DNA from: Thermoleophilaceae bacterium
GTDB lineage: Bacteria; Actinomycetota; Thermoleophilia; Solirubrobacterales; Thermoleophilaceae
Direction: 5' to 3'
Assembly: GCA_016929195.1 (NCBI GenBank)
Contig: JAFGJG010000074.1
Location: 1-64,000, forward strand
Length of the DNA: 64,000 nucleotides
The position numbers and the translations under genes are program-made. The stretch's first letter is position 1. Each line of letters begins with the position of its first letter. The notes beneath the pieces were generated by a model. It had not been told where the DNA came from, did not search any database, and saw only the letters and a program-made list of their open reading frames with translations. Positions 36,049-64,000 of the stretch are shown in pieces.

Positions 36049-37545
36049 GTGTCCGAGCTGCGCACGAACGAGGCCACCGTGGCGCGCGCGCCCGCCGCGC
36101 CGCCGCTCTCCGTGGTCGGGGCCACCGACGGGGAGCCCAGGAGCCTGCCGCGCGGCCGCACGTGGATCCTCATCGTGGCGGACCTCTTCGCGATCGCGAT
36201 GGCGACAGCCATCACGTACACGATCGCCGAGCTCGCGGCGTCGCCGGCCGTCATCGCCCCGACGGGGATCACCGTCGCGGTGGCCGTCGCGGCCGTGCCC
36301 ACCTGGATCGCGATCTTCACCGTCTACAACCTCTACGAGCGCCAGAACCGCAGCATCTCGCTGGCGACGTTCGACGAGGTCGGCGAGCTCTTCCATGCGC
36401 TGATCGCCGGCTCCCTGTTCTTCCTGGTTGTGAGCCAGGTGCTCTACCGCGTGGCCGACGCCGAGGTGGTCTTCCCGGTCGAGGCGGCGATGTTCCTCGC
36501 CATCGCGCTGCCGCTCGTGCTCCTGATGCGCGGCTCGGTCCGCAGCTGGCTGCTGCCGGCGATCATGGCGCCGCGCCGGACCCTGATCGTGGGCACGGGC
36601 GAGGTCGCGGAGATGGTCGAGCGCAAGATCGGCTCGCACCCCGAGTACCGGCTCGAGCTCGTCGGGTTCGTGGACGACGATCCGCATGGCCACGCCTCCG
36701 CGCCCGTCGTGGGGCGGACTGCGGACCTGCCGCGGCTCGTGGACGAGCTCGAGGTCGACTGGGTGATCCTCGCCTTCTCGAACGCGTCCTACGAGGAGAC
36801 GCTTGACCTGCTCCGCGGCGCACGGCGGCCCGACGTGCACCTGTCGATCGTGCCGCGCTTCTTCGAGGTCTTCGCCTCGAACGCGACGATCCAGGAGCTC
36901 GAGGGCATGCCCGTCGTGAACCTGCCCCCGATGCGGCTCTCGCGGGGCGTCCGCCTCACGAAGCGCATCGTGGACGTGGTCGCGTCCGGCGTCGGCCTGC
37001 TCGCGCTGTCGCCGCTGCTGGCGGTGATCGCCGTCGCGATCAAGATCGACAGCCGCGGCCCGATCTTCTTCCGCCAGGAGCGCCACGGCCGCGGGGGAAG
37101 CATCTTCCGGATCGTCAAGTTCCGCAGCATGCGTGTAGGCGCGGAGCAGGAGCGCCTCGCGCTGGCGCCCCTGAACGAGATCGAGGGCGCGCTGTTCAAG
37201 ATGAAGGAGGACCCGCGGGTCACGCGCGTCGGCCGGTTGCTGCGCCGCACGAGCCTCGACGAGCTGCCGCAGCTCTGGAACGTTCTGAAGGGCGAGATGA
37301 GCCTTGTCGGCCCGCGCCCGTTCGTCGTCCACGAGTCGTCCCAGATCACCGGCTGGGCGAGCCGCCGGCTCGACATCACCCCGGGGATCACCGGCCTCTG
37401 GCAGGTGCTCGGGCGGACGGACATCCCGTTCGACGAGATGGTCAAGCTCGACTACATCTACGTGACCAACTGGTCGCTGCTCTGGGACCTGAAGATCCTG
37501 TTCCAGACCATCCCGGTGGTCCTCTCGCGGCGGGGGGCCTACTGA
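36049..37545 (+). CDS. Polyprenyl-phosphate sugar-phosphate transferase (WcaJ/WbaP type)
   Basis: 498 residues from a GTG immediately after the upstream stop. Four N-terminal hydrophobic helices lie within about residues 38-170, followed by a CoA-binding-like Rossmann domain (TLIVGTGEVAEMVERKIGSH, residues about 180-290), a re-entrant membrane helix (KRIVDVVASGVGLLALSPLL) and the bacterial sugar-transferase domain (FFRQERHGRGGSIFRIVKFRSM, SLDELPQLWNVLKGEMSLVGPRP, GITGLWQVLGR). It starts glycan assembly by moving a sugar phosphate from a nucleotide sugar to undecaprenyl phosphate. First biosynthetic gene of a four-gene operon (36049-40682). Confidence 0.96.
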   Translation: MSELRTNEATVARAPAAPPLSVVGATDGEPRSLPRGRTWILIVADLFAIAMATAITYTIAELAASPAVIAPTGITVAVAVAAVPTWIAIFTVYNLYERQNRSISLATFDEVGELFHALIAGSLFFLVVSQVLYRVADAEVVFPVEAAMFLAIALPLVLLMRGSVRSWLLPAIMAPRRTLIVGTGEVAEMVERKIGSHPEYRLELVGFVDDDPHGHASAPVVGRTADLPRLVDELEVDWVILAFSNASYEETLDLLRGARRPDVHLSIVPRFFEVFASNATIQELEGMPVVNLPPMRLSRGVRLTKRIVDVVASGVGLLALSPLLAVIAVAIKIDSRGPIFFRQERHGRGGSIFRIVKFRSMRVGAEQERLALAPLNEIEGALFKMKEDPRVTRVGRLLRRTSLDELPQLWNVLKGEMSLVGPRPFVVHESSQITGWASRRLDITPGITGLWQVLGRTDIPFDEMVKLDYIYVTNWSLLWDLKILFQTIPVVLSRRGAY

Positions 37546-40783: not shown

Positions 40784-41989
40784 CTAGGCCAGCGCCAGGC
40801 GCGCCCGGCTGTCCGCGGAGCGGGCGGCCAGGGTGGCCGTGAGCACCTCGGCGGTGCGCTCGGCGGCGTGGCCGTCCCAGAGCGGGATGGCCGACGGCGT
40901 GGGCGGCAGCGGCGACGGCTCGATGCCCGCGATCAGCGCGGGGTTGTCGCCCAGCAGGGTGTTGGTCCCGTGCGTGAGCGTGACCGGCCGCTCGGTGTTG
41001 GGCCGGAACGTGTAGCAGCGCACCCCGAGGGCGGAGGCCTCCTCCTGCACGCCGCCCGAGTCGGTCACGATGGCGCCCGCGGCGCCCTGGAGCGACAGGA
41101 AGTCGAGGTAGCCGGCGGGCGCGATGCATCGCACGCCGGCGGCGGCCAGGCGGCGCAGGCCGTTGGCGTCGCGCAGCCTGGCGCGGGTGCGCGGGTGGAC
41201 CGGGAACACGACCGGGGTCCGGTCGCCGAGCTCGATCAGCGCCTCCACGATGGCGCTGAGCCGCACCGGGTCGTCGACGTTCGACGGCCGGTGGAGCGTC
41301 ACGAGCACGAACTCGCTGTCGTTCAGGTTCAGCTCGCTCCAGGCGGCGCGGCGGCGCGCACGGCCCTCGAGCCGGCGCAGCGAGTCGATCATCGTGTTGC
41401 CCACGTAGTGGATGCGCCCCGCGTCGATGCCCTCGCGCAGCAGGTTCGGCTCCGCCTCGGGGCTGTGGGTGAGGAGCACGTCGGACATCCGGTCCGTGAG
41501 GACGCGGTTGACCTCCTCGGGCATCGTCCAGTCGTCGGAGCGAAGGCCCGACTCCAGGTGCGCCACCGGGATGCAGAGCTTGGCCGCCGCCAGCGCGCAG
41601 GCGAGCGTGGAGTTGACGTCGCCCGCGACCACCACGAGGTCGGGGCTGCGCTCCATCAGCACCTGCTCGAAGCCCGCCAGCACCTTGCCGGTCTGGTCCC
41701 CGTGCGGCCCGGAGCCCACCTCGAGGGAGACGTCGGGGTCCGGGAAGCCGAGGTCGTCGAGGATGTCGCCGGAGAGCCTCCGGTCGTAGTGCTGGCCCGT
41801 GTGGACGATCAGCTGGCGCGTCTGCCCGCGGCGGCGCATCGCGTCCACGACCGGGGCCATCTTCACGAAGTTCGGCCGGGCGCCCACGACGTAGGCGACC
41901 AGGGGCATGCCGCCGCTCAGCGGCGCCGCTCGCGCGGCTCTCGCGCGCGTGCGCGCACGGAATCCGGACATGCTGTTGCTCGGGTCCAC
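40784..41989 (-). CDS. wecB: UDP-N-acetylglucosamine 2-epimerase
   Basis: 401 residues from a GTG at 41987-41989; GGAGG lies just upstream and TACGCT (minus strand, 42003-42008) could be the -10. The conserved core starts later, at ATG 41906-41908 (MPLVAYVVGARPNFVKMAP), so the first 27 Arg/Ala-rich residues may not be translated. Family marks: HTGQHYDRRLSGDILDDLG, VVAGDVNSTLACALAA, VAHLESGLRSDD, MPEEVNRVLTDRMSD, FPVHPRTR and VTDSGGVQEEA. It interconverts UDP-GlcNAc and UDP-ManNAc for surface glycans. Last gene of the minus-strand group that begins with the flippase at 45167. Confidence 0.95.
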   Translation of the reverse strand: MDPSNSMSGFRARTRARAARAAPLSGGMPLVAYVVGARPNFVKMAPVVDAMRRRGQTRQLIVHTGQHYDRRLSGDILDDLGFPDPDVSLEVGSGPHGDQTGKVLAGFEQVLMERSPDLVVVAGDVNSTLACALAAAKLCIPVAHLESGLRSDDWTMPEEVNRVLTDRMSDVLLTHSPEAEPNLLREGIDAGRIHYVGNTMIDSLRRLEGRARRRAAWSELNLNDSEFVLVTLHRPSNVDDPVRLSAIVEALIELGDRTPVVFPVHPRTRARLRDANGLRRLAAAGVRCIAPAGYLDFLSLQGAAGAIVTDSGGVQEEASALGVRCYTFRPNTERPVTLTHGTNTLLGDNPALIAGIEPSPLPPTPSAIPLWDGHAAERTAEVLTATLAARSADSRARLALA

Positions 41990-43658: not shown

Positions 43659-45167
43659 TCACTCGACCGCAAGTGCTGCAGGAGACGTTGCCGTCCGGGC
43701 GCGGCGACGGCCGAGCAGCGAGCGCGCCTCGCCCGCGAGCTCGGGGGCACGCCACCAGCACAGCGCGGCGTAGACGGGGACGGCCACGCCCACGCAGATC
43801 ACGAGGCGGAGCGCCTCGTGGACGCCCGCGTCGACGAGCGCCATCCGCACGCCGAGCGTGACGAGGCACATGCCGGCCGCGGCCTGGAAGACGCCCGAGA
43901 TCGCCCGGAGGAACACGAGTGGGGACACGCCCAGCGCGCGGGCGGCGAGCACCGTCTGCCACGGCTCGACCAACGTCGTCGAGATCGCGAACGCGACCGA
44001 GACGCCGACGATGCCCCAGTTGAGCCCGAGCGCGAAGGCCGCGAGGTGGCAGCCGACGATCAGCACCGTCACCCGGAAGATGGTGCGGGCCCGGTCACGG
44101 GCCATCAGGACATCGACGCTCAGGCTCTGGAGGGCCTGGACGATCCCGACCCAGGCGAGGATCTGGATGACCGGCACGGCCTTCTCCCACTGGCCGCCGA
44201 GGACGACGGGGACGAAGTCGGGCGCCACGACCGCGAGCACCGCCAGCGGCGCGATCGACACCGCCGCGAGGATGCGCACGACGCGTGCCCACGCCTGGGC
44301 GATGCGCGCGGGCTCGTCCTGGATGCGGCAGAACGCCGGCGACATCACGCGCTGGAGCGGGCCGCCGATCTTGCTGGCGGGCTGGAGGATCGTGTTGAAA
44401 GCGATCGCGTAGGCGCCGAGCGGCGCGGTTCCGAGGAAGCGCCCGATCAGGAAGCGGTCCCCGTTCGTCTGGAAGTAGTAGAGGAGCCGGTGGCCCAGCA
44501 TGTAGACGCTGAAGCCGCCGAGGTCGCGGAGGCTCGCGCCCGAGAACGCGAAGCGCGGCCTCCAGGGCGAGCGCACCCACACGAGCGCGGTCGTGACGAG
44601 CGCGGCGACCCCGTACTGGAGGATGATCGCCCAGGCGCCCGCTCCGTTGGCGGCGAGCACCACACCCGCCACCGCGCCGGCGATGGCGCCGAGCGTCGGG
44701 AGCATCTCCACGCGCCGGAAGTCCATGTCGCGGAGCATCAGCGACTGCTGTGGCGCCCCGAGCGCGTTGACCACGAAGCCGATGGAGAGCACCTGGAGGA
44801 GCGGCTTCGCGTCGGCGTCGCCGTAGAGGGACGCGAGCGGCCCCGCCAGCACGAAGCCCAGGACGGCGAAGAGGACGCCGCTGGCGAGCGTGGCCCAGAA
44901 TGCGGTGTCGCGGTCCACGGCGCTCAGCTCCTTGCGCTGGATCAGCGCGGCACCGAGCGCCAGGTCGGAGAAGACCAGGACGAGGCTCGCGAAGACGAGC
45001 GCGAGCGCCGCGAGGCCGTACTCCTCCGGCGTGAGCAGTCGCGCGATCGCGATGGCCGCGATCGCCCGCGTGATCTGCAGGCCGACCTGGGACCCGACCA
45101 CCCAGCCGAGCCCCCCGAGCACGCGCGCGCGGAGGTCCGGGACTCCCGGGCCGGAAGAAGAGGACAT
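43659..45167 (-). CDS. Wzx-type polysaccharide flippase (MOP superfamily)
   Basis: 502 residues. About 12-14 hydrophobic segments span the chain, in the arrangement of the Polysacc_synt/MOP exporters: VLGGLGWVVGSQVGLQITRAI near the start, YGLAALALVFASLVLVFSDLA, GAPQQSLMLRDMDFRRVEMLP and NGDRFLIGRFLGTAPLGAYA. Such proteins flip undecaprenyl-linked repeat units outward. The ATG at 45165-45167 is chosen over the GTG just before it, since TAACGT (minus strand, 45176-45181) ends 8 bases upstream. It heads a minus-strand group with the beta-helix protein and the 2-epimerase, and is divergent from the asparagine-synthase-like gene. Confidence 0.93.
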   Translation of the reverse strand: MSSSSGPGVPDLRARVLGGLGWVVGSQVGLQITRAIAAIAIARLLTPEEYGLAALALVFASLVLVFSDLALGAALIQRKELSAVDRDTAFWATLASGVLFAVLGFVLAGPLASLYGDADAKPLLQVLSIGFVVNALGAPQQSLMLRDMDFRRVEMLPTLGAIAGAVAGVVLAANGAGAWAIILQYGVAALVTTALVWVRSPWRPRFAFSGASLRDLGGFSVYMLGHRLLYYFQTNGDRFLIGRFLGTAPLGAYAIAFNTILQPASKIGGPLQRVMSPAFCRIQDEPARIAQAWARVVRILAAVSIAPLAVLAVVAPDFVPVVLGGQWEKAVPVIQILAWVGIVQALQSLSVDVLMARDRARTIFRVTVLIVGCHLAAFALGLNWGIVGVSVAFAISTTLVEPWQTVLAARALGVSPLVFLRAISGVFQAAAGMCLVTLGVRMALVDAGVHEALRLVICVGVAVPVYAALCWWRAPELAGEARSLLGRRRARTATSPAALAVE

Positions 45168-45253
45168 CACTGCGCACGTTAGGTCCGCGGCGGCCGGGCC
45201 ACCCTGGACGGTCGGTTAGGCTCGACGGGCTCGCAGCGGACTACGGTGGCTCC

Positions 45254-50602: not shown

Positions 50603-51412
50603 ATGGATCTCGCGCAGCACGCTGCTGTTCTCTGGCGCTTCCGGGCGGTTCTCGCCGCCGGGCTCGCCCTTGGCGTCCTCCTCGCCGTCCTCGCGGCCTT
50701 CCAGGTTCCCTCGTTCTCGCCGCGCGGCTCGGAGACCTGGACCAGCGAGTCCTCGCTCCTGATCACGCAGGCCGGCGGCCCGGAGTTCCGGACGCTCGCC
50801 GGCGCGCCCGACGCGGCCGCACCCTCCGGTGACACCGGCGACCTCGAGTTCGCGGACCCGGACCGGCTGTCGGCGCTGGCCAGCCTCTACGCGCAGCTCG
50901 CCACCGGCGACCGCGTGCGCCGCCAGCTGCCCGAGAAGCCCAAGCCCGCGCAGATCGAGGCCATCGCGCTCGAGGGCAACGCGAGCACGCAGCTTCCCGT
51001 GGTCAAGCTGACGACCGAGGCCGGCAGCGGCCCGGCCGCGCGCGCTCTCAACGAGCACACCGTCGACGCGCTTCAGAACGTCGTGCGCGACGAGCAGTCG
51101 CGCAACGCGATTCCCGCCGGCCAGCGCATTCGCATCGACCAGATCAACGCACCGGCGGACCCGGTGAAGACCGCCGGTCGCTCGCACACGGCCTCCATCC
51201 TCGCCTTCCTGCTGTGCGCGCTCGGCGCCGTCGCGCTCGCGCACCTGCTGGCCGCGCTGCGCGACGGGCGCGAGGACATGCAGGAGGTCGAGGGCGTCGT
51301 GGTGCCGTGGACCAGCGACCCGGAGCCGGTCCCTGCTCCCGAGCCGATGCACGCCCACGGGCCCGCGCCGGACACCATGGGCTGGCTCTCGGGCAGGCGC
51401 CAGGCACGGTGA
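50603..51412 (+). CDS. Wzz/CapA-like polysaccharide co-polymerase
   Basis: 269 residues; TACGCT at 50590-50595 ends 7 bases before the ATG, and GAGGA also precedes it. Two membrane helices (about residues 14-33 and 200-224) enclose an extracytoplasmic domain with LASLYAQLATGDRVRRQL and ALNEHTVDALQNVV, the layout of chain-length regulators. No tyrosine-kinase domain is attached. The C-terminus is a Pro/Glu-rich cytoplasmic tail (DPEPVPAPEPMHAHGPAP). GTGA overlap with the polymerase-like gene fits a shared role in chain extension. Confidence 0.82.
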   Translation: MDLAQHAAVLWRFRAVLAAGLALGVLLAVLAAFQVPSFSPRGSETWTSESSLLITQAGGPEFRTLAGAPDAAAPSGDTGDLEFADPDRLSALASLYAQLATGDRVRRQLPEKPKPAQIEAIALEGNASTQLPVVKLTTEAGSGPAARALNEHTVDALQNVVRDEQSRNAIPAGQRIRIDQINAPADPVKTAGRSHTASILAFLLCALGAVALAHLLAALRDGREDMQEVEGVVVPWTSDPEPVPAPEPMHAHGPAPDTMGWLSGRRQAR

Positions 51413-52893
51413 CCTCCCGGGCAGCCGTTCTCCCCGGACCGGGGCGGGCGGAAGCCGAGCGGACACTCTGGATCGTCGTCGGCATCGCCCTGGCGGTGGT
51501 GCTCGCCGCGGCGGTGCTGCGGGTCCAGGCCAATCCGATCCTCGCGGCGGTCGTCCTGCCGCTGGCCCTGGTGGCCTGGCAGCGGACGCTGCTCGCCTGG
51601 CCGACGCTCCTCGGGCTGACCCTCGTGGTCATCCTCTTCATCCCGATCCGGCGCTACACCGTGGGCGGCGGGCTGCCGTTCGAGCTCGAGCCCTACCGGC
51701 TCCTGCTCGGGGTGATACTCGTCGGCTGGCTCTTCGCCGTCTGTGCCGACCCGGCGGTCCGCTGGCGAGCCACGGGATTCGAGCTGCCGGCGCTCGTCGT
51801 GATCGTGGGGATCCTCGGCTCGCTCGCCCTCAACATCTCGCGCGTGAACGCGGTGAGCGGGCTGGTCGTGAAGCAGGTCACGTTCTTCCTGACGTTCTTC
51901 CTCATCGTCTACTTCGTGGCGAGCGTGATGGAGCGCGGCCCCAAGCTCGAGCGCATGATCCGCCTGCTCGTGGCCGGCGGGACGGTCCTCGCGGTGCTCT
52001 CCCTGATCGAGTGGCGGACCGGGACCAACTTCTTCAACGGGCTCCACCACGTGATCCCGTTCCTCAACTACGTGGACTTCGGCGAGCACATCGCCCGCGG
52101 GACCGGTTTCAGGGCGCTCGGGTCGGCGCAGCACCCGATCGCGCTCGGCGCAGCGCTCGCGATGCTGATCCCCCTGACGGTCTACCTGTACCGGCGTGAC
52201 GACCACGTCGTGTGGCTCGTCTGCGGCGCTCTCCTGACGCTGGGCGCGTTCGCCTCCGGTTCGCGGACCGCGGCGATCATGCTCGTGGTCCTGCTGCTCA
52301 CGTTCCTCTGGATCAAGCGCCAGGAGACGATGCGGCTGCTGCCGATGCTGATCCCGCTCGCGATCGTGATCCAGATCGTCATGCCGGGAACGCTCGGGAC
52401 CTTCAGGGCGATCCTCCAGCCGAGCTACCTCGTCCGCGAGCAGTCACAGGAGCTGGGGTCGGGCAGCGGGCGGATCGCCGACCTCGGGCCGAGTCTCAGC
52501 GAGTGGTCCCAGAAGCCGCTGCTCGGACAGGGCTTCGGGACCCGCGTCGTGTCCACCTCACTCGGCCCCGGCGACGTGGGCTCCGGCGGCACGGTCGTGG
52601 CCTCGGACGTGCAGATCCTCGACAACCAGTGGCTGACCACGCTCCTCGAGATCGGCGCGGTGGGCGTGCTCGGGCTGGTCTGGCTCTTCTGCCGGGCCGT
52701 GCGCCGCCTGGCGCAGCGGGCCCGCTCCGACCCCGGCCCGGACGGGTGGCTCGCCACTGCGCTCGCCGCGGCTCTGGCGGCGTTCGCGGTCGGCATGCTG
52801 ACCTTCGACGCGTTCGCCTTCATCCAGGTGACGTTCATCGCCTTCATCATGCTCGGCTTCACCGCCGTGCTCACGCGGCAGCCGGGGAAATGA
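51409..52893 (+). CDS. O-antigen ligase/polymerase-like membrane protein (Wzy_C type)
   Basis: 494 residues from a GTG overlapping the upstream stop. Roughly 11-12 hydrophobic helices with a large external loop (about residues 330-400) containing GSGSGRIADLGPSLSEWSQKPLLGQGFGTRV, the typical Wzy_C/O-antigen ligase loop with H-x-x-like Arg-rich ends. GSAQHPIALGAALAML and LGAFASGSRTAAIMLVV precede it. Members polymerise or ligate lipid-linked glycans at the outer membrane face. In a bacterium of this type it would act as the polymerase with the neighbouring co-polymerase. Confidence 0.9.
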   Translation: MTSRAAVLPGPGRAEAERTLWIVVGIALAVVLAAAVLRVQANPILAAVVLPLALVAWQRTLLAWPTLLGLTLVVILFIPIRRYTVGGGLPFELEPYRLLLGVILVGWLFAVCADPAVRWRATGFELPALVVIVGILGSLALNISRVNAVSGLVVKQVTFFLTFFLIVYFVASVMERGPKLERMIRLLVAGGTVLAVLSLIEWRTGTNFFNGLHHVIPFLNYVDFGEHIARGTGFRALGSAQHPIALGAALAMLIPLTVYLYRRDDHVVWLVCGALLTLGAFASGSRTAAIMLVVLLLTFLWIKRQETMRLLPMLIPLAIVIQIVMPGTLGTFRAILQPSYLVREQSQELGSGSGRIADLGPSLSEWSQKPLLGQGFGTRVVSTSLGPGDVGSGGTVVASDVQILDNQWLTTLLEIGAVGVLGLVWLFCRAVRRLAQRARSDPGPDGWLATALAAALAAFAVGMLTFDAFAFIQVTFIAFIMLGFTAVLTRQPGK

Positions 52894-54026
52894 CCGGCGC
52901 GGCCGGGCACCGGAGGATCGGAGTCGCCTTTCCGGGCGATCCGAGCCAGCCGGCCACCTGGTCCGGCACCCCCTGGGGAATCATGCGCGGGCTCGAGGGC
53001 GCGGGCGTGGAGCCGGTCCCGATCCGCGTGGAGCCGCCCGCGGTCCTGCGCGCCGCCGCTTTCAACGCCGTCGCCGCCGCACATCTGCGGCCGAGCCGCG
53101 ACGTGGTCGGGGCGATCCAGCGCAGCCGCGCCGCTGCCTGGGCGTCGCCGCAGCTCGCGGCCGTGAACTCGTGGGCCGCCCCCTGGCGGCTGCGTCAGGC
53201 GGGCCCGCTCGACGCGATCGTCCAGATCGGCACGGGCTACACGCTCGACACGCGGGTCCCGATCGCCACCTTCGAGGACATGACGGTCGCGCAGACGCGC
53301 GACCACTCCTACGTGGGCTGGGAGGACCTCTCGGCCGCCGAGTTCGTGTCGCGCATGGAGCGCCAGCGCCGTGCCTACGCCCAGGCCGTGGCGTGCTGTC
53401 TCACGACTCCCTGGGCGGCCGAGTCGGTGATCCGCGACTACGGGATCGCCCCGGGCAAGGTCCACGTCGTCGGCGTCGGCTTCAACCACGACGCGGGCGG
53501 CGGCGATCGCGACTGGTCGCGGCCGCGGTTCCTGTTCGTCGGCATGGACTGGGCGCGCAAGAACGGCGCGGGGGTGCTGCGCGCGTTCGAGCGACTGCGC
53601 GAGGAGCTGCCCTCTGCCCTCCTCGACGTCGTCGGGCGCCACCCGCGCCTGGACCAGCCGGGGGTGACCGGTCACGGGGTGCTCCACCTCAACGTGGCCG
53701 AGGAGCGCGCCCGGCTCGATCGCCTGTTCGGCTCGGCCACCTGCTTCGTGATGCCCTCCTACTCGGAGGCCGGCGCGATCTCGTACGTCGAGGCCGTGGC
53801 CGCCGGAGTGCCGAGCATCGGCACCACGGCCGGCGGGTCGGGCTACCTGATCGGGCGCGAGGGCCTGATGGTGGACCCGCGCGACGACGACTCGCTGCTG
53901 GCCGCGATGCGGCGGCTGTCCGACCCCGTGACGGCGGCCCGGCTCGGCGCCGCCGCGAAGCGGCGGGCCGTGGACTTCACCTGGACGGCCGTGGCGCAGC
54001 GCTTGCTGCGCGCCCTGGGCGACTAG
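52890..54026 (+). CDS. Family 4 glycosyltransferase
   Basis: 378 residues; ATGA overlap with the polymerase gene. GT-B fold: the C-terminal half shows PRFLFVGMDWARKNGAGVLRAF, LLDVVGRHPRLDQPGVTGHG and the GT4 E-x7-E region FVMPSYSEAGAISYVEAVAAGVPSI, followed by GLMVDPRDDDSLLAAMRRL. The N-terminal acceptor domain is less conserved (GVAFPGDPSQPATWSGTPWGIMRGL). It retains nucleotide-sugar donor chemistry with retention of configuration. Its last 50 bases overlap the 3' end of the converging gene at 53977. Confidence 0.92.
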   Translation: MTGAAGHRRIGVAFPGDPSQPATWSGTPWGIMRGLEGAGVEPVPIRVEPPAVLRAAAFNAVAAAHLRPSRDVVGAIQRSRAAAWASPQLAAVNSWAAPWRLRQAGPLDAIVQIGTGYTLDTRVPIATFEDMTVAQTRDHSYVGWEDLSAAEFVSRMERQRRAYAQAVACCLTTPWAAESVIRDYGIAPGKVHVVGVGFNHDAGGGDRDWSRPRFLFVGMDWARKNGAGVLRAFERLREELPSALLDVVGRHPRLDQPGVTGHGVLHLNVAEERARLDRLFGSATCFVMPSYSEAGAISYVEAVAAGVPSIGTTAGGSGYLIGREGLMVDPRDDDSLLAAMRRLSDPVTAARLGAAAKRRAVDFTWTAVAQRLLRALGD

Positions 54027-54891
54027 CGGCCCGCAGAGCCGCGAGGTGCCCGCGCCGTGAGGCGGGGCGGGGGAAGGTCGCGGCCGCGTGGGTGGCCTCG
54101 CCGAGCGCCACGCCCAGCGCCTGCACGCGCGCCCCGAGCGGCCCCATGTGCTTGCGCGCGTACAGCACGCGGCTCCGCGCGGCGATCGCCTGCGTCTCGC
54201 CGGCGCCCGAGGACGCGCCGCCCACGTGACGCGCCACCGCGGCGGGCTCGAAGCGGACGGCGTGCCCCGCCGACCACAGCCGGCGACAGAGGTCGGTGTC
54301 CTCGCAATACAGGAAGAAGTCCTCGTCGAAGCCGCCGACCGTCTCGAAGGCGCTGCGCCTGACGAGCATGCAGGCGCCGGACACCCAGTCGGGGGCGCCC
54401 GCCCGCCCGTACGCGGCGGGGTCGCGCACGAGCTCGTCGCTCCATGCCGCGCGCGGCCGCAGCCGGTGAAGGAAGAGCGCCTGCGCGAACGTGGAGCGCT
54501 GCCGCGGGAAGCGGCGCAGGCTCCAGGCGAGCGAGCCGTCCTCGTCCACGAGCCGTGGGGCGGCGAGCCCGGCCGCGGGAACCGACTCGAGCACGCGCAC
54601 GAGCGCCGCGAGCGACTCGGCGTCGATCCGCGCGTCGGGGTTCATGAAGAGCAGGTAGGGCGCGTCGCCACGCGCGGCGCCGAGGTTGCAGCCGTAGGAG
54701 AAGCCTCCGTTGCGGGGCGACCGGACGGTGTCCACGTCGAGGCCGGCGACCGCGTCGAGGGAGCGATCCGGCGAGGCGTTGTCCACGACGGTCACCCGGA
54801 CGTCCGGCAGCGCCGCCAGCGGCGCGACGCATCCGCGCAGCGTCGCCGCGCTCCGGTAGCTCACGATGACCGCGTCGACGTTCACCGCCAC
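53977..54891 (-). CDS. Family 2 glycosyltransferase, rhamnosyltransferase-like
   Basis: 304 residues. NVDAVIVSYRSAATLRGCV, VTVVDNASPDRSLDAVAG, PRNGGFSYGCNLGAARGD, LLFMNPDARIDAESLAALV and the acceptor-side GGFDEDFFLYCEDTDLCRRL are typical of GT2 rhamnosyltransferases. The start is a GTG at 54889-54891, with TAGCTT (minus strand, 54898-54903) 6 bases upstream; a second GTG at 54885 has GAGGGG as ribosome site. The tail of about 35 residues is Arg/Ala-rich and overlaps the 3' end of the opposite gene by 50 bases. Confidence 0.9.
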   Translation of the reverse strand: MAVNVDAVIVSYRSAATLRGCVAPLAALPDVRVTVVDNASPDRSLDAVAGLDVDTVRSPRNGGFSYGCNLGAARGDAPYLLFMNPDARIDAESLAALVRVLESVPAAGLAAPRLVDEDGSLAWSLRRFPRQRSTFAQALFLHRLRPRAAWSDELVRDPAAYGRAGAPDWVSGACMLVRRSAFETVGGFDEDFFLYCEDTDLCRRLWSAGHAVRFEPAAVARHVGGASSGAGETQAIAARSRVLYARKHMGPLGARVQALGVALGEATHAAATFPRPASRRGHLAALRAASRPGRAASAAPRPSR

Positions 54892-56216: not shown

Positions 56217-59200
56217 ATGCGTGCCGCCCGCCCGCTCTTCCTTCTTGCTGCCCTGATACTGGCGCTCGCCGCGCCCGGGGCCGCGCGCGCCCAGTCGGCA
56301 GTCTGCCCGTGCAACGTCTTCGGGCCGGCGGACGCCCCGCTCGGGGACGCCCTGGAGGACGCGCCGATCGAGGTCGGCATGAAGTTCCGCTCCGACGAGG
56401 ACGGCTTTGTCACCGCGCTGCGCTTCTACAAGCAGGCCAACAACACCGGCACGCACGTCGGGCACCTGTGGACGAGCGCCGGGCAGCAGCTCGCCGAGGT
56501 GACCTTCACGAACGAGACCGCCACCGGCTGGCAGGAGGCAACGCTGCCGGTCCCGGTCGCGATCCAGAGGGACGCCACCTACATCACGTCCTACCACTCG
56601 AGCCAGGGCCGGTTCGGCTTCAACCCGACGTACTTCGTGAGCGGCATCGACCGGGCCCCCCTGCATGCGCCCGCGGACGCGCTCGCCGGCGGCAACGGCG
56701 TGTATCGCTACGGAGCAAGCGGCTTCCCCGACCAGACGTGGAACGCGACCAACTACTGGGTCGACGTCACCTTCGAGCAGGCGAGCCCGGTCGACACGCG
56801 CGCGCCGCTCGTCACATCGACGACCCCGGCGCAGGGCGCGACCGGGGTCCCGCCCTCGGCCAGCGTGACGGCGGACTTCGACGAGGCGCTGGAGCCGACG
56901 ACGGTGAACGCCGGTGCGTTCACCCTCACGGACGACACCGGGGCGACCGTCGTCGCGAACGTGACGTGGGACGCGGCGAACAAGCGCGTGACCCTCGACC
57001 CGCAGTCGAGCCTTGCTCTCGGCAAGACGTACACGGCGACGCTCAAGTCGGGCACGGCCGGAGTCACCGACCTCGCCGGCAACCCCCTGGCGGCGGAGCG
57101 GTCCTGGACCTTCAGCACCGCCTCGGCCTGCCCGTGCACGGTGTTCGGAGCCGGCGACGCGCCCACCGGCGACGCCGTGAGCGACCAGCCGGTCGAGGTC
57201 GGGATGAAGTTCCGCTCGGACGAGGACGGCTACATCACGGCGCTGCGCTTCTACAAGCAGGCGAACAACACGGGCACGCACGTCGGCCACCTGTGGTCGG
57301 CGACCGGCCAGCTGCTGGCGTCGGCGACCTACACGAACGAGACGGCCTCGGGGTGGCAGCAGGTGGACCTGCCGAATCCGGTAGCCGTCACGAAGGACAC
57401 GACCTACGTCACCTCGTACTACGCGAGCGCGGGCCGCTACGCGTTCAGCCCGGGCTTCTTCAACCAGGGCGTGGACCGCGCGCCGCTCCACGCGCCGGCA
57501 TCGACGCCTGCGGACGGCAACGGCGTCTTCCGCTACGGAGCCAGCGGGTTCCCCGACCAGAGCTTCAACGCGACGAGCTACTGGGTCGACGCGAGCTTCG
57601 ACCGCACGATCCCGCCGGACACGCGCGGCCCGGTGGTGACCGGCCAGACGCCGGCGTCCGGCGCCACCGACGTGTCGGCGACCATCGAGGTGAGCGCCAC
57701 GTTCGACGAGCAGCTCGCCGCGGCCTCGGTCTCCGGGTCCACCTTCACGCTGCGCGACGAGAACGGGAACCTGGTGCCGGCGGACGTGTCGTACGACGCC
57801 CAGTCGCGCACGGCGAAGCTGAAGCCGCAGTCGGCGCTGGCCAACTCGGAGACCTATCTCGTCCGGATCCAGGGCGGGCCGACCGGCGTGACCGACGCGG
57901 TCGGCAACGGGCTGACTGCCGACAGGACCTGGACGTTCACGACCGAGGCGCAGTCGCCCGGCGTGGGCCCGGGCGGCCCCATCCAGGTGATCACCGACGC
58001 CGGTGACCCGTTCGGCCGCTACTACGCCGAGATCCTGCGCGCCGAGGGCCTCAACGAGTTCTCGGTGGACGACGGGCCCGTGACCGCCGCCAAGCTGGCC
58101 GGTCACGACACGGTGATCCTGGCCCAGGGCGCCGCCACGGACGCCGAGGTCGCGGTGCTCACGAGCTGGGTGCAGGGCGGCGGCAACCTGATCGCGATGC
58201 GCCCGGACAAGAAGCTGGCCGGTCTGCTCGGGCTGACCGACGCGGGCGGCACGCGCGCGAACCAGTACCTGAGGGTGGACCAGGGCACCGCGGCGGGCGC
58301 GGGCATCTTCGGCGAGACGATGCAGTTCCACGGAACCGCCGACCGCTACGGCCTGAGCGGCGCCTCGGCGGTGGCGACGCTCTACTCGGACGCCGCGACC
58401 GCCACCTCCGATCCGGCGGTGACGCTGCGCGACGTGGGGACCGGCGGCGGGCAGGCCGCGGCCTTCACGTACGACCTCGCGCGCTCGGTCGTCCAGACGC
58501 GCCAGGGCAACCCGGCCTGGGCGGGCCAGAAGCGCGACGGCACCCCCAACGGCATCCGGGCGAACGACCTGTTCTACCCCGACTGGGTCGACATGAGCAA
58601 GATCGACGTGCCGCAGGCCGACGAGCAGCAGCGCCTGCTGGCGAACCTGATCACGGAGCTGAACCGCGACAAGGCGCCGCTCCCGCGCTTCTGGTACCTG
58701 CCGCGCGGCGAGAAGGCGACCGTCGTCGAGACCGGCGACGACCACGCCCGCGGCGGCACGCCGGCCTTCTTCGACCGCATGAAGAGCTCGAGCCCGGCCG
58801 GCTGCTCGGTGGCCGACTGGGAGTGCGTGCGCGGGACCTCGTACGTCTACCCGGACACGCCGATGACGGACACGCAGGTGGCGGGCTACGAGGCGGACGG
58901 CTTCGAGGTGGCGCTCCACCTGGTGACGGGATCGGGCTGCCAGGACTTCACGCCCGCGTCGCTCGAGGACGACCTCTCCACTCAGCTCGCGCGCTTCGAG
59001 GCCGCGTGGCCGAACGCGAACAAGCCGGTGACCAACCGCACGCACTGCATCGTCTGGAGCGACTGGGCGACGGAGCCGAAGCTCGAGAAGGCCCACGGCA
59101 TCCGCTTCGACACCAACTACTACTACAACGGCCCGCCCGGCTGGCTGACGGGCCCGGGCCTCCTGACGGGCTCGGGCTTCCCGCAGCGCTTCGCTGACGC

Positions 59201-62200
59201 CGACGGCTCGCTGATCGACGTCTACCAGGCGATGACGCAGGTGACGGACGAGTCCGAGATGCCGATGCCGCGCCAGGTCGACACGCTGCTCGACAACGCG
59301 CTCGGGTCGAAGGCGTTCTACGGCGTCATCACGGTCCTGAACCACTCGGACCACGGCGACCACGCGAACCTCAACGACATCGTGGCGTCCGCGCAGGACC
59401 GCGGCGTCCCGATCGTGTCCTCCGCACAGATGCTCGACTGGCTCGACGGCCGCAACGCCTCCTCGTTCGACGACGTGGCCTACAGCGGCGGCCGCCTGAC
59501 CTTCTCCGTGGTCACGAACCCCAAGGCGCGCGGCATCGAGGCGATGCTCCCGGCGCAGTCCGCATCCGGCCCGCTCTCGGGCCTCACGCGCGCCGGCCAG
59601 CCGGTCGCGCACGAGAAGCGGACGGTGAAGGGCGTCGAGTACTACGCCTTCAAGGCGGCCTCGGGCGACTACACCGCCACCTACGCGAACGACGCCTCGG
59701 CACCGGCCATCGCGCAGGTCGCCGCGACCGCTGACGCAGGCGGCCACGCGACGGTCACCTGGGAGACGGACGAGCCGGCGAGCTCGCGCGTGGACTACGG
59801 TCGCACGACCTCGCTCGGCACTCGCGTGGACGACACCGCCCGGGTCACGAAGCACAGCGTCGAGCTCACGGGCCTGAGCCCGAACACGACCTACCGGTAC
59901 CGCGTCACCTCCGTGGACGCGGCCGGCAACTCGGCCGGCTCGCCCGCCGGGAGCCCCGCGTCCTTCGCGACTCCGCCGGGCGCGCTCGTGGACGACCTGG
60001 CCTCAGAGTTCCGCTCCGGCGCCCAGTCCGCGACCTATGCCGGGCAGACCGCGGCGGACGCGGACGGCGAGGTTCAGCTCCAGCCGGAGACCGGCGAGGA
60101 GTTCGAGGGCGGCTCGCTGCCCGCCGGGTGGAACGTCCTGTCCTGGGGCCCGGGCGGCTCCGCCGTCACGAGCGGCGGCTCGCTCGTCGCGAACGGCGCC
60201 TCCGCGTACGCGCCCAGCCTCCATGAGGGCCCGCGCGTCATCGAGTTCAGCGCCACCTTCAGGCCGGTGAACGACCAGGCGGTCGGGTTCGGCAACGACC
60301 TCAGCGACGTCCCCTTCGCGGTCTTCGGAACCGGCCCGAGCGGGTCGGCCTTCCAGATGTACGCGCAGAGCGCGGGCGACCCCGGCACCGAGCAGGCGAC
60401 CCCACTGCCGGCCGTCACCCTCAATGCTCCGCACCGCTTCCGGATCGAGTGGAACGCGGCCGACGTCCGCTTCTTCGTCGACGGTGATCTCGTGGCGACC
60501 CACCCGGTCGCGATCACGCGGCTGATGCGGCCCGCCGCCAGCGACTACGGCCTCTTCGGCGCCGGCGTCCAGGTCCACTGGCTGCGCCAGGGCGGCTACC
60601 CCGGCACCGGCACGTTCACGTCGCGGACCCTCGACTCGGGCCCGGGCGCCTCCCAGTGGAGCTCGCTCACCGCGCAGACGGACCTCCCGAGCGGCACCCA
60701 GATCGCCTTCGACACGCGCACCGGCGGCACGCGCGAGCCCGACGCCAGCTGGTCTGCCTGGCAGCCGGTCGGCGCCGGCGGCGCGATCGCGAGCCCGGCG
60801 GCCCGCTACATCCAGTACCGCGCCCGCTTGGCCTCGGCCACGGGAGTCGCGACGCCGACGCTCGAGCGCGTCCAGATTGGCTTCGGCGCGGGCACCGACC
60901 GAGCGCCGGTGCCCGGCACCGTGACGGTCGCGCCCGCCTCTCCGACCAGCGGCCAGACGGTGACGGCCACCCCGTCCGGCTTCAGCGACCCCGACGGGGA
61001 CCCGCTGACCTACCACTACCGCTGGCTCAAGAACGGAGCACCCATCCCCGGCGCCACCACCGCCTCGCTCAACCTCTCGCTGGCGGGCAACGGCGACCAT
61101 GGCGACGAGCTTCGCGCCGAGGTGTACGCGACGGACGGCAGGGGTGCGGCGAGCGACCCCGCGTTCGCGGACGTGACCGTCGCGAACACCGCGCCGACGG
61201 CGGGCAGCGTGACGGTCAAGCCGACCGCGCCGGCCACAAACGACGTCGTCAAGGCGGTCCCGAGCGGTTTCGCCGACGCCGACGGCGACCAGCTCAGCTT
61301 CCGCTATCAGTGGCTCCGCAACGGGACGCCCATCAGCGGCGCGACCGCGGCGAGCCTCGACCTCGCGCAGGCCGGCAACGGCGACAACGGCGACACGGTC
61401 GCGGTGGACGTGACCGCGGTCGACGGGAACGGCGGAACGAGCCCGGCGGCTCGCGGCAGCCAGGCCGTGACCGGCACGAACGCGACACCGGTTGAGGGCA
61501 CGGCCACCATCACGCCCGCAGCGCCGAAGACGAGCGACGTGCTGACGGCGGCCCAGAGCGGCTTCCGCGATCCCGACGGCGACATCCTCAGCTACGGCTA
61601 CCGGTGGCTCCGCAACGGCACCGTCATCGCCGGCGCCACCGCCGCGACGCTCGACCTCGCGCAGGCGGGCAACGGCGACCGCGGTGACGTGATCCGGCTC
61701 GAGGTGACCGCCTCGGATCCGGGCGGACGCACGAGCGACGCGGCGGTGGCCACCGCCACCGTGGCGAACACCGCTCCCGTGGCCGGGTCGGTGGCGGTCA
61801 AGCCGAGCAGCCCGTCCAGCGACGACATCGCGTCGGCCGCACCGGCCGGCTTCGCGGACGCCGACAGCGACGCCGTCACCTACACGTACCAGTGGTTCCG
61901 CAACGGAACCGCGATCGGCGGCGCGACCGGGCGCACGCTCGACCTGTCCGAGGCCGGCAACGGCGACGCGGGCGACACGGTCGCGGTCGACGTCAAGGCG
62001 CTCGACGGCAGCGGCGGCTCGAGCGCGACCGTGCGTGGCAGCCAGACGATCGGCAGCGGGGCCTCGCACCCGGTCGCCTCGTACGGCTTCGAGGAGGCGA
62101 CCGGCACCGCGATCGCCGACGAGAGCGGCAACAGCGACGGCGGCATCGGAACCGCCACGCGCGCGAACCTCGGTCGCTTCGGCCGCGCCCTGAGCTTCGA

Positions 62201-64000
62201 CGGCGAGGACGACAAGGCGACCGTGCCGGACAACGCGCCACTCGACCTCGCGACCGGGATGACGCTCGAGGCATGGGTCAAGCCGCGCTCGGCCACCGAC
62301 TGGCGCACCGTGATCTTCAAGGAGTCGGCGCAGGGCGTGGACTACGCGCTCTACTCCAGCAGCGACACCGACGTGCCGAGCGTGAACCTCGGCGGCGACC
62401 CGGGCGCGCGCGGCGCCGGCGATCTCGACCCGGGCAAGTGGTCGCACCTCGCGGCGACGTACGACAACAACATCCTGCGGCTGTTCGTGAACGGCGCCGA
62501 GGTCGGGACGCGCACGCTCCCCGAGGCCCTGGACGGCAGCTTCGGCGGCCCGCTCAGCTTCGGCGGCAACTACGTCTGGGGCGAGCACTTCGACGGCCTG
62601 ATCGACGAGGTCCGCATCTACAACCGCGCCCTGAGCGGAGCGGAGATCGGCGCCGACATGGGCGCGCCGGTCGTGCCGGGGACCCCCGCACCGCCGGCCG
62701 ACCCCGGCCCCGACGCGATCGGCAGCTTCTCCGCGCCGCGGGCGTGGCCGATCGTGCCCGTGCACATGGCCCTGACCTCGAACGGCCAGGTCGCGTCCTG
62801 GGACGGCTTCGAGGCGGCGCTCGACTCGGAGAAGCTCTGGAACCCGGCGACCGACACGTTCCTCGGCATCCCGACGGGGCGCAACCTCTTCTGCGCCGGC
62901 CAGGTGACGATCGGCGACGGGCGCCTCGCGGTCTTCGGCGGGCACATCAACGCCTACGAGGGCACGAAGGACACGAACCTCTACAACCCGCAGACGGGTA
63001 CCTGGCAGCGCGGCGCCGACATGAGCGTGGCGCGCTGGTACCCGACGACGACGGTGCTCCCCGACGGCCGCGTGTTCGTGATCTCCGGCGACGGCGTGAC
63101 CCTGAAGGAGCCAGGCCAGAGCGTGCCGCTGACGGACGCATCGAACACCCTCCCGTCGATCTACGACCCGAAGGCGGACAGCTGGACCGACCTGCCGGAG
63201 GCATCGCGCCGCATCCCGCTCTACCCGTTCATCTTCGTCCTGCCGAACGGCAAGCTCTTCGACGCGGGCCCCGACACGACCACGCGCACATTCGACCTCG
63301 ACACGAAGCAGTGGACGACCGTCGGCACGAGCCCCGTCGACGGCCAGAGCGCCGTCATGTACCGCCCGGGGAAGATCATGAAGTCGGGCACCTGGTCCGA
63401 TCCGGAGTTCCCCGGCCGGGCCGTGACGAACAGGGCCGCCGCGATCGACATGACCGCCGCCAACCCGGCCTGGCACGAGGTCGCGCCCATGAACTACAAG
63501 CGCGCGTACCACACGCTCACCGTCCTCCCCGACGGCAAGGTGCTGGCCACGGGCGGCGAGAACGGCACCGACGGCGTGGACGAGACGAAGGGCGTGCTCG
63601 GGACCGAGATCTGGGATCCGGACAGCGACACCTGGACGCCCACCGCCTTCCACCGCCGGCCGCGGCTCTACCACTCGAGCGCCCTGCTGCTGCCGGACGG
63701 CCGCGTGCTGCTCGCGGGCGGCGGCGCATTCGGCAACGCCAAGAACGAGAAGTCCTCTGAGATCTACTCGCCGCCGTACCTCTTCAAGGGCCCGCGGCCG
63801 ACGATCAGCGCCGCCCCGTCCGCGCTCAACTACGGCACCCAGTTCACCGTCGACACCCCGGATGCCGCGCGCATCGCGTCCGTGTCGCTCGTCCGAATGG
63901 GCTCCGTGACGCACAACATCGACATGGACCAGCGCTTCATCCCGCTCGCGAAGCAGACGCAGGCCGGCGGCGTGCGGGTGGACGGGCCGGCGAACGCCAA
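56217..64000 (+). CDS. Giant secreted multidomain protein ending in a copper radical oxidase module, C-terminus cut by window edge
   Basis: A single open frame of at least 2594 codons. Order: signal peptide (1-26, RPLFLLAALILALAAPG); DUF4082-like domain (about 30-190) plus Big_5-like Ig domain (195-300), the pair repeated at 302-580 with a 275-residue period; a region of about 582-1160 with GATase-like and polysaccharide-deacetylase-like parts (ETGDDHARGG, Asp841-Asp842-His843); a fibronectin-like domain (1163-1250); a jelly-roll-like segment; four Ig-like repeats (about 1563-1942); a LamG-type lectin domain (1945-2145); then a galactose-oxidase-like kelch propeller with Cys2226, Tyr2275, Tyr2485-His2486 and His2566. 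These match the radical-cofactor and copper ligands of AA5 oxidases. TAGCGT at 56201-56206 ends 10 bases before the ATG. It probably modifies or binds extracellular glycan. Confidence 0.93.
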   Translation, partial: MRAARPLFLLAALILALAAPGAARAQSAVCPCNVFGPADAPLGDALEDAPIEVGMKFRSDEDGFVTALRFYKQANNTGTHVGHLWTSAGQQLAEVTFTNETATGWQEATLPVPVAIQRDATYITSYHSSQGRFGFNPTYFVSGIDRAPLHAPADALAGGNGVYRYGASGFPDQTWNATNYWVDVTFEQASPVDTRAPLVTSTTPAQGATGVPPSASVTADFDEALEPTTVNAGAFTLTDDTGATVVANVTWDAANKRVTLDPQSSLALGKTYTATLKSGTAGVTDLAGNPLAAERSWTFSTASACPCTVFGAGDAPTGDAVSDQPVEVGMKFRSDEDGYITALRFYKQANNTGTHVGHLWSATGQLLASATYTNETASGWQQVDLPNPVAVTKDTTYVTSYYASAGRYAFSPGFFNQGVDRAPLHAPASTPADGNGVFRYGASGFPDQSFNATSYWVDASFDRTIPPDTRGPVVTGQTPASGATDVSATIEVSATFDEQLAAASVSGSTFTLRDENGNLVPADVSYDAQSRTAKLKPQSALANSETYLVRIQGGPTGVTDAVGNGLTADRTWTFTTEAQSPGVGPGGPIQVITDAGDPFGRYYAEILRAEGLNEFSVDDGPVTAAKLAGHDTVILAQGAATDAEVAVLTSWVQGGGNLIAMRPDKKLAGLLGLTDAGGTRANQYLRVDQGTAAGAGIFGETMQFHGTADRYGLSGASAVATLYSDAATATSDPAVTLRDVGTGGGQAAAFTYDLARSVVQTRQGNPAWAGQKRDGTPNGIRANDLFYPDWVDMSKIDVPQADEQQRLLANLITELNRDKAPLPRFWYLPRGEKATVVETGDDHARGGTPAFFDRMKSSSPAGCSVADWECVRGTSYVYPDTPMTDTQVAGYEADGFEVALHLVTGSGCQDFTPASLEDDLSTQLARFEAAWPNANKPVTNRTHCIVWSDWATEPKLEKAHGIRFDTNYYYNGPPGWLTGPGLLTGSGFPQRFADADGSLIDVYQAMTQVTDESEMPMPRQVDTLLDNALGSKAFYGVITVLNHSDHGDHANLNDIVASAQDRGVPIVSSAQMLDWLDGRNASSFDDVAYSGGRLTFSVVTNPKARGIEAMLPAQSASGPLSGLTRAGQPVAHEKRTVKGVEYYAFKAASGDYTATYANDASAPAIAQVAATADAGGHATVTWETDEPASSRVDYGRTTSLGTRVDDTARVTKHSVELTGLSPNTTYRYRVTSVDAAGNSAGSPAGSPASFATPPGALVDDLASEFRSGAQSATYAGQTAADADGEVQLQPETGEEFEGGSLPAGWNVLSWGPGGSAVTSGGSLVANGASAYAPSLHEGPRVIEFSATFRPVNDQAVGFGNDLSDVPFAVFGTGPSGSAFQMYAQSAGDPGTEQATPLPAVTLNAPHRFRIEWNAADVRFFVDGDLVATHPVAITRLMRPAASDYGLFGAGVQVHWLRQGGYPGTGTFTSRTLDSGPGASQWSSLTAQTDLPSGTQIAFDTRTGGTREPDASWSAWQPVGAGGAIASPAARYIQYRARLASATGVATPTLERVQIGFGAGTDRAPVPGTVTVAPASPTSGQTVTATPSGFSDPDGDPLTYHYRWLKNGAPIPGATTASLNLSLAGNGDHGDELRAEVYATDGRGAASDPAFADVTVANTAPTAGSVTVKPTAPATNDVVKAVPSGFADADGDQLSFRYQWLRNGTPISGATAASLDLAQAGNGDNGDTVAVDVTAVDGNGGTSPAARGSQAVTGTNATPVEGTATITPAAPKTSDVLTAAQSGFRDPDGDILSYGYRWLRNGTVIAGATAATLDLAQAGNGDRGDVIRLEVTASDPGGRTSDAAVATATVANTAPVAGSVAVKPSSPSSDDIASAAPAGFADADSDAVTYTYQWFRNGTAIGGATGRTLDLSEAGNGDAGDTVAVDVKALDGSGGSSATVRGSQTIGSGASHPVASYGFEEATGTAIADESGNSDGGIGTATRANLGRFGRALSFDGEDDKATVPDNAPLDLATGMTLEAWVKPRSATDWRTVIFKESAQGVDYALYSSSDTDVPSVNLGGDPGARGAGDLDPGKWSHLAATYDNNILRLFVNGAEVGTRTLPEALDGSFGGPLSFGGNYVWGEHFDGLIDEVRIYNRALSGAEIGADMGAPVVPGTPAPPADPGPDAIGSFSAPRAWPIVPVHMALTSNGQVASWDGFEAALDSEKLWNPATDTFLGIPTGRNLFCAGQVTIGDGRLAVFGGHINAYEGTKDTNLYNPQTGTWQRGADMSVARWYPTTTVLPDGRVFVISGDGVTLKEPGQSVPLTDASNTLPSIYDPKADSWTDLPEASRRIPLYPFIFVLPNGKLFDAGPDTTTRTFDLDTKQWTTVGTSPVDGQSAVMYRPGKIMKSGTWSDPEFPGRAVTNRAAAIDMTAANPAWHEVAPMNYKRAYHTLTVLPDGKVLATGGENGTDGVDETKGVLGTEIWDPDSDTWTPTAFHRRPRLYHSSALLLPDGRVLLAGGGAFGNAKNEKSSEIYSPPYLFKGPRPTISAAPSALNYGTQFTVDTPDAARIASVSLVRMGSVTHNIDMDQRFIPLAKQTQAGGVRVDGPANA

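Follow-up and report, generated by a model that had tools for sequence, protein, structure and literature searches.

The exopolysaccharide deacetylases PelA (CE21), PelA-DA (CE26) and Agd3 (CE18) share a domain order consisting of an alpha/beta domain (ThuA-like in PelA), a CE domain and a beta domain, and CE4, CE18 and PelA enzymes are metal-dependent and deacetylate amino sugars. In PelA, the ThuA-like domain precedes the deacetylase domain (PMC12022489). Among copper radical oxidases, the extracellular, glycan-linked GlxA of Streptomyces lividans (4unm; NF052501) acts in glycan synthesis together with CslA (PMC11022532). A fungal aldehyde/glyoxal oxidase, like GlxA, carries a Trp directly before the radical Tyr, whereas in galactose oxidase the stacking Trp comes from another loop (PMC13094651), and the W290/R330 pair marks galactose oxidases (PMC11267884). 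Bacterial AA5 proteins with appended discoidin, ricin or LamG domains, in which an oxidase is joined to binding modules, have also been found. Here we describe a giant gene that joins a deacetylase-like core to an AA5 oxidase; the kinds of components are known, and their combination is new within the samples searched.

The window analyzed (64,000 nucleotides) comprises positions 1-64000 of contig C86 (76,357 bases) in a genome of 3.46 Mb and 193 contigs, whose gene content and GC suggest a soil-type actinobacterium; features are summarized in Table 1. As the sequence-only reading had described, the frame of the giant gene is open from 56178/56217 through 64000 and runs off the window; it extends a further 2,683 bases, uninterrupted, to contig position 66683 (L004:10684), and encodes 3,488 aa from the ATG at 56217. 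That reading had named a stop or frame error, revealed by resequencing and splitting the gene, as grounds against it; the assembled sequence contains neither a stop nor a frame break along the gene and no near-identical repeat, the best internal repeat having 81% DNA identity and GC being even throughout. Because the N-terminal secretion signal is clear and neither an LPXTG motif nor another anchor was seen when the C-terminal end was inspected, the protein is predicted to be secreted, and the surface attachment implied by its earlier description as a surface machine is not borne out.

Table 1. Features of the giant gene, its surroundings and the related Sinorhizobium loci. Coordinates are window positions unless a locus (L) or contig (C86) is given; aa positions refer to the giant protein.
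Feature	Coordinates	Strand	Remark
Bacterial sugar transferase (priming glycosyltransferase)	36049..37545	+	
UDP-GlcNAc 2-epimerase	40784..41989	-	
Wzx-like flippase (Polysacc_synt_3)	43659..45170	-	
Wzy/O-antigen-ligase-like protein	51214..52893	+	
Family 2 glycosyltransferase	53977..54891	-	just upstream of giant gene
Giant gene, portion inside the window (aa 1-2594 of 3,488)	56217..64000	+	frame reaches contig position 66683
Sec-type signal peptide (MRAARPLFLLAALILALAAPGAARAQ)	56217..56294	+	read from sequence
DUF4082 + Big_5 unit 1 (aa 30-301)	56304..57119	+	Pfam
DUF4082 + Big_5 unit 2 (aa 303-577)	57123..57947	+	Pfam
Unnamed conserved core (aa 588-1156)	57978..59684	+	ThuA-like alpha/beta domain, CE4-like domain, then beta domain
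fn3/purple-acid-phosphatase-N-like domain (aa 1165-1245)	59709..59951	+	Pfam
ConA/GH16-like jelly-roll region (aa 1255-1580)	59979..60956	+	weak, partial Pfam GH16
Four Ig-like repeats, ~97 aa each (aa 1582-1985)	60960..62171	+	4 DNA copies, spacing 288-294
LamG-like lectin domain 1 (aa 1990-2150)	62184..62666	+	Pfam E=4.8e-35
AA5-type copper radical oxidase module (aa 2166-2625)	62712..64000, ends contig 64091	+	Cys2226, Trp2274, Tyr2275, Tyr2485, His2486, His2566
Secreted protein, TSP3 repeats + C-terminal beta-helix region	L006:6152-8182		downstream of core paralogue
Giant secreted protein: glucose/sorbosone-dehydrogenase-like + PKD + LamG + BACON repeats	L006:8211-12356 (C86 72210-76355)		runs off contig end
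Sinorhizobium megaplasmid exopolysaccharide loci	L105:13584-15761, L106:8524-10740		short core homologue, annotated only 'Ig-like domain-containing protein'

Pfam identified two DUF4082 + Big_5 units, Laminin_G_3, Kelch, Glyoxal_oxid_N and GO-like_E_set in the giant protein, in agreement with the duplicated DUF4082/Ig units and lectin domain proposed earlier; the DNA of unit 2 is 77% identical to that of unit 1 over 300 nt. GH16 activity of the jelly-roll region was rejected because Pfam gives it only a weak, partial match and an E-x-D-x-x-E motif could not be spotted by eye, and the region probably serves in binding only. The oxidase had been taken for the C-terminal module, but 863 further residues follow it, read from the translation as an array of Ig/fn3 domains with another LamG domain, the latter assignment being backed by similarity between the two LamG domains. 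The terminal position of the gene in a glycan cluster was supported: genes for a priming sugar transferase, a UDP-GlcNAc 2-epimerase, a flippase, glycosyltransferases and a Wzy-like ligase/polymerase lie upstream, together with one for an asparagine-synthase-like protein.

By every sequence test available, residues 2166-2625 are predicted to form a copper radical oxidase with a confidently modelled AA5 fold and a GlxA-like second shell. Structure prediction, which had been suggested as a check, yielded an AF2 model from an 18-sequence alignment (pLDDT 89, pTM 0.91) with the seven-bladed kelch + E-set fold, whose top Foldseek matches were galactose oxidase (E~5e-39, TM 0.87) and Streptomyces GlxA (4unm, TM ~0.87), and which superposes on both with the five named residues on theirs. 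Cys2226, Tyr2275, Tyr2485, His2486 and His2566 all occur at the positions first reported, and align with C228, Y272, Y495, H496 and H581 of galactose oxidase (2eid/1gof) and, in the same order, with C121, Y289, Y501, H502 and H589 of GlxA (4unm; residue numbers are chain index + 30). Among 18 relatives, the Tyr and His ligands are invariant, and Cys is present in 16.

The stacking tryptophan, Trp2274, immediately precedes the radical Tyr2275; this pair is invariant in the 18 relatives and equals W288-Y289 of GlxA, being consecutive as in glyoxal/aldehyde oxidases. Fungal and bacterial galactose 6-oxidases (AA5_2; 1gof, 9g8h) share with the module the fold, the five first-shell residues and an Arg at the R330 position (R2332), but the W290/R330 pair is incomplete, with Gly at the W290 position, and the Q326, Y329, Q406 and F464 positions differ. 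Galactose-oxidase-like sugar oxidation was rejected as the default activity, given that the Trp2274 arrangement is of the GlxA (glyoxal/aldehyde-oxidase) type. The module resembles GlxA in its kelch + E-set fold, Cys-Tyr/Tyr-His/His copper site and consecutive Trp-Tyr; GlxA, however, is a stand-alone protein paired with CslA, whereas the module is embedded in 3,488 aa, and it scores 239 bits against the GlxA equivalog NF052501, below the curated cut-off of 800 bits.

The description of residues 588-1156 as deacetylase-like stands in part: it is plausible from weak profile similarity to CE4, while Pfam and PDB searches gave no significant match and no Pfam deacetylase. In relatives, Pfam recognizes a ThuA-like domain (E=0.0016) at the beginning of the core. 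Comparison with a CE4 profile of 25 sequences gave P=0.0014, against P=0.17-0.62 for reversed, column-shuffled and unrelated control profiles and 0.0003 for a true CE18 positive control, and paired H901 with the first His of CE4 motif 2 (MT2). The CE4-like domain of the giant protein contains D841, D842, H901, R941, H943, H1043 and D1045, all of which except D842 are invariant in nine core proteins, down to 36% identity. An Asp-Asp (base + metal) motif is present as D841-D842, with the metal Asp replaced in some relatives (N, G), and the HxxxH metal pair, a defining feature of these deacetylases, is incomplete, as H901 is followed at +4 by Gly (HxxxG) and the second His of the CE4/CE18/PelA triad is missing.

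Direct Agd3/CE18 homology was not found, no profile match being obtained to the two CE18 proteins (bacterial Agd3_CE) tested, and the AF2 model of the core was too poor (pLDDT 43) to judge the (beta/alpha)7 fold of the deacetylase superfamily. The core resembles PelA, PelA-DA and Agd3 in domain order, in having an Asp-Asp motif and a catalytic-type His, and in occurring in exopolysaccharide loci, and differs from them in lacking a kept HxxxH, a significant CE18 match and a detectable GH114 domain. A deacetylase is the best reading of the core; since the CE4 similarity is weak though above controls and the second metal His is absent, deacetylation is plausible but putative.

The core belongs to a conserved, unnamed and uncharacterized family, with approximately 10 distinct core-carrying proteins among all loci examined, in which Big_5/DUF4082, a ThuA-like domain and a CE4-like domain follow one another in that order. 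Copies were found in six genomes (G035, G664, G752, G837, G843 and G686), on Sinorhizobium megaplasmids, and in the next gene on contig C86. The G035 relative (L052:2740-11784; 3,014 aa) combines DMFA2_C (N,N-dimethylformamidase-like), DUF4082 and Big_5 with the core and jelly-rolls, and the G664 relative has three DUF4082 + Big_5 units ahead of the core; given its occurrence in several relatives, DUF4082/Big_5 followed by the core is a recurring unit. The tandem core paralogue (L006:2786-6085; C86 66785-70084) is 68% identical, 1,099 aa long, and carries an apparent lipoprotein-type N-terminus and, after the core, fn3 + jelly-roll domains as in the giant protein, without an oxidase.

In S. 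meliloti and S. sojae, the core occurs in exopolysaccharide loci with rfb genes, a sugar transferase, Wzz-like and CpsD-like proteins, and glycosyltransferases. The Sinorhizobium protein (QND35916.1) is ~45% identical to the core over 97%, with Big_5 ahead of the core in S. sojae, but is only ~740 aa long and lacks DUF4082, LamG and oxidase domains. A beta-helix protein is encoded nearby in the S. meliloti locus (L105:23215-24639). The G664 core adjoins a glycosyltransferase and a sugar dehydratase, and around the G035 and G686 cores no glycan cluster is obvious, their neighbours being Aldedh, MFS and MerR genes. The core was absent from the 30 other genomes of the host family and was therefore probably acquired by the host.

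An AA5-type E-set domain was present in 36 of the 299 genomes of the host class, among which the frame of the giant gene (3,506 aa, stop to stop) is the longest by far, the next being 1,702. Oxidase-like similarity was detected in 87 open frames among all loci examined, a count that includes duplicates between loci and some merely kelch-like frames; when these were compared with the approximately 10 core proteins, the giant gene alone had core and oxidase in one protein. An oxidase scan of genome contigs matched only distant Nitrosomonas and Poribacteria proteins, and no deacetylase-like core was found in the bacterial AA5 proteins with binding domains. The fusion was found in no other genome searched and in none of the literature searched; these searches are samples, and across them the original statement that no described system has such a combination holds.

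Post-export tailoring is the mechanism that accounts for these findings most economically: we consider it on balance probable, with modest confidence, that this single secreted protein acts on the cell's own exopolysaccharide, the product of the neighbouring Wzx/Wzy-type cluster, and modifies it once exported. The polymer would be held by DUF4082, Ig and LamG-type domains and its amino sugars deacetylated by the core in a metal-dependent reaction, and the GlxA-type oxidase, consuming O2 and releasing H2O2, would oxidize alcohols or, with higher probability, aldehydes along the chain or at its ends. In favour of this explanation are the location of core relatives in exopolysaccharide loci and the role of GlxA in glycan synthesis. 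The substrate, deacetylation and the action of both domains on one polymer are, like the activity steps in general, parts of this best explanation that we infer; as counterpoints, the core has an incomplete metal triad, its G035 and G686 relatives show no obvious glycan cluster around them, and the fusion, occurring in one genome, could be incidental. A stronger version, which we regard as unlikely, is that one polypeptide de-N-acetylates and oxidizes the same surface glycan, so that the polymer crosslinks or gains charge in place, making the protein a bifunctional glycan-curing enzyme and the core a new deacetylase family; if true, free amines and carbonyl/carboxyl groups would be made on the same chain. 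Slightly less doubtful is an active oxidase carried on an extended binding scaffold, the core having lost its deacetylase function and acting in carbohydrate binding or as a structural module. This would fit the missing second metal His, the variable metal Asp, and the binding role, towards carbohydrate or a partner protein, proposed for PelA's ThuA-like domain (PMC12022489), but the invariance of six core residues across nine divergent proteins suggests a working site.

That the protein is instead a scavenging enzyme that binds and attacks glycans from plant debris or from other organisms, its position beside the glycan cluster being incidental, appears improbable: the large secreted proteins encoded downstream (beta-helix; glucose/sorbosone dehydrogenase with LamG + BACON) would suit degradation, but core relatives occupy exopolysaccharide biosynthesis loci in Sinorhizobium, and neither a glycoside hydrolase nor a lyase turned up in the neighbours that were searched. 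An assembly artefact or binning error is conceivable in a fragmented metagenome-type assembly (193 contigs, 3.2% contamination), the more so as other family genomes lack the core. However, no near-identical repeat able to mis-join was found, GC is even, the tandem paralogue comes next on the contig, and contig C86 carries relA/spoT, ruvB and recJ; as its RelA is 75-84% identical to those of most family members, the contig is assigned to the host lineage. Misassembly was accordingly judged very unlikely from repeats, composition and these housekeeping genes.

Bacterial copper radical oxidases have been tied to glycan deposition through GlxA. The natural fusion of such an oxidase to a putative glycan-modifying core known from exopolysaccharide loci suggests that the substrate is a polymer, which is directly testable. 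The presence of the core in Sinorhizobium meliloti, a tractable laboratory organism, offers a model for an uncharacterized family. The host genome also encodes a second AA5-type oxidase on another contig (C64, L005:11535-14000), a stand-alone protein of 821 aa.
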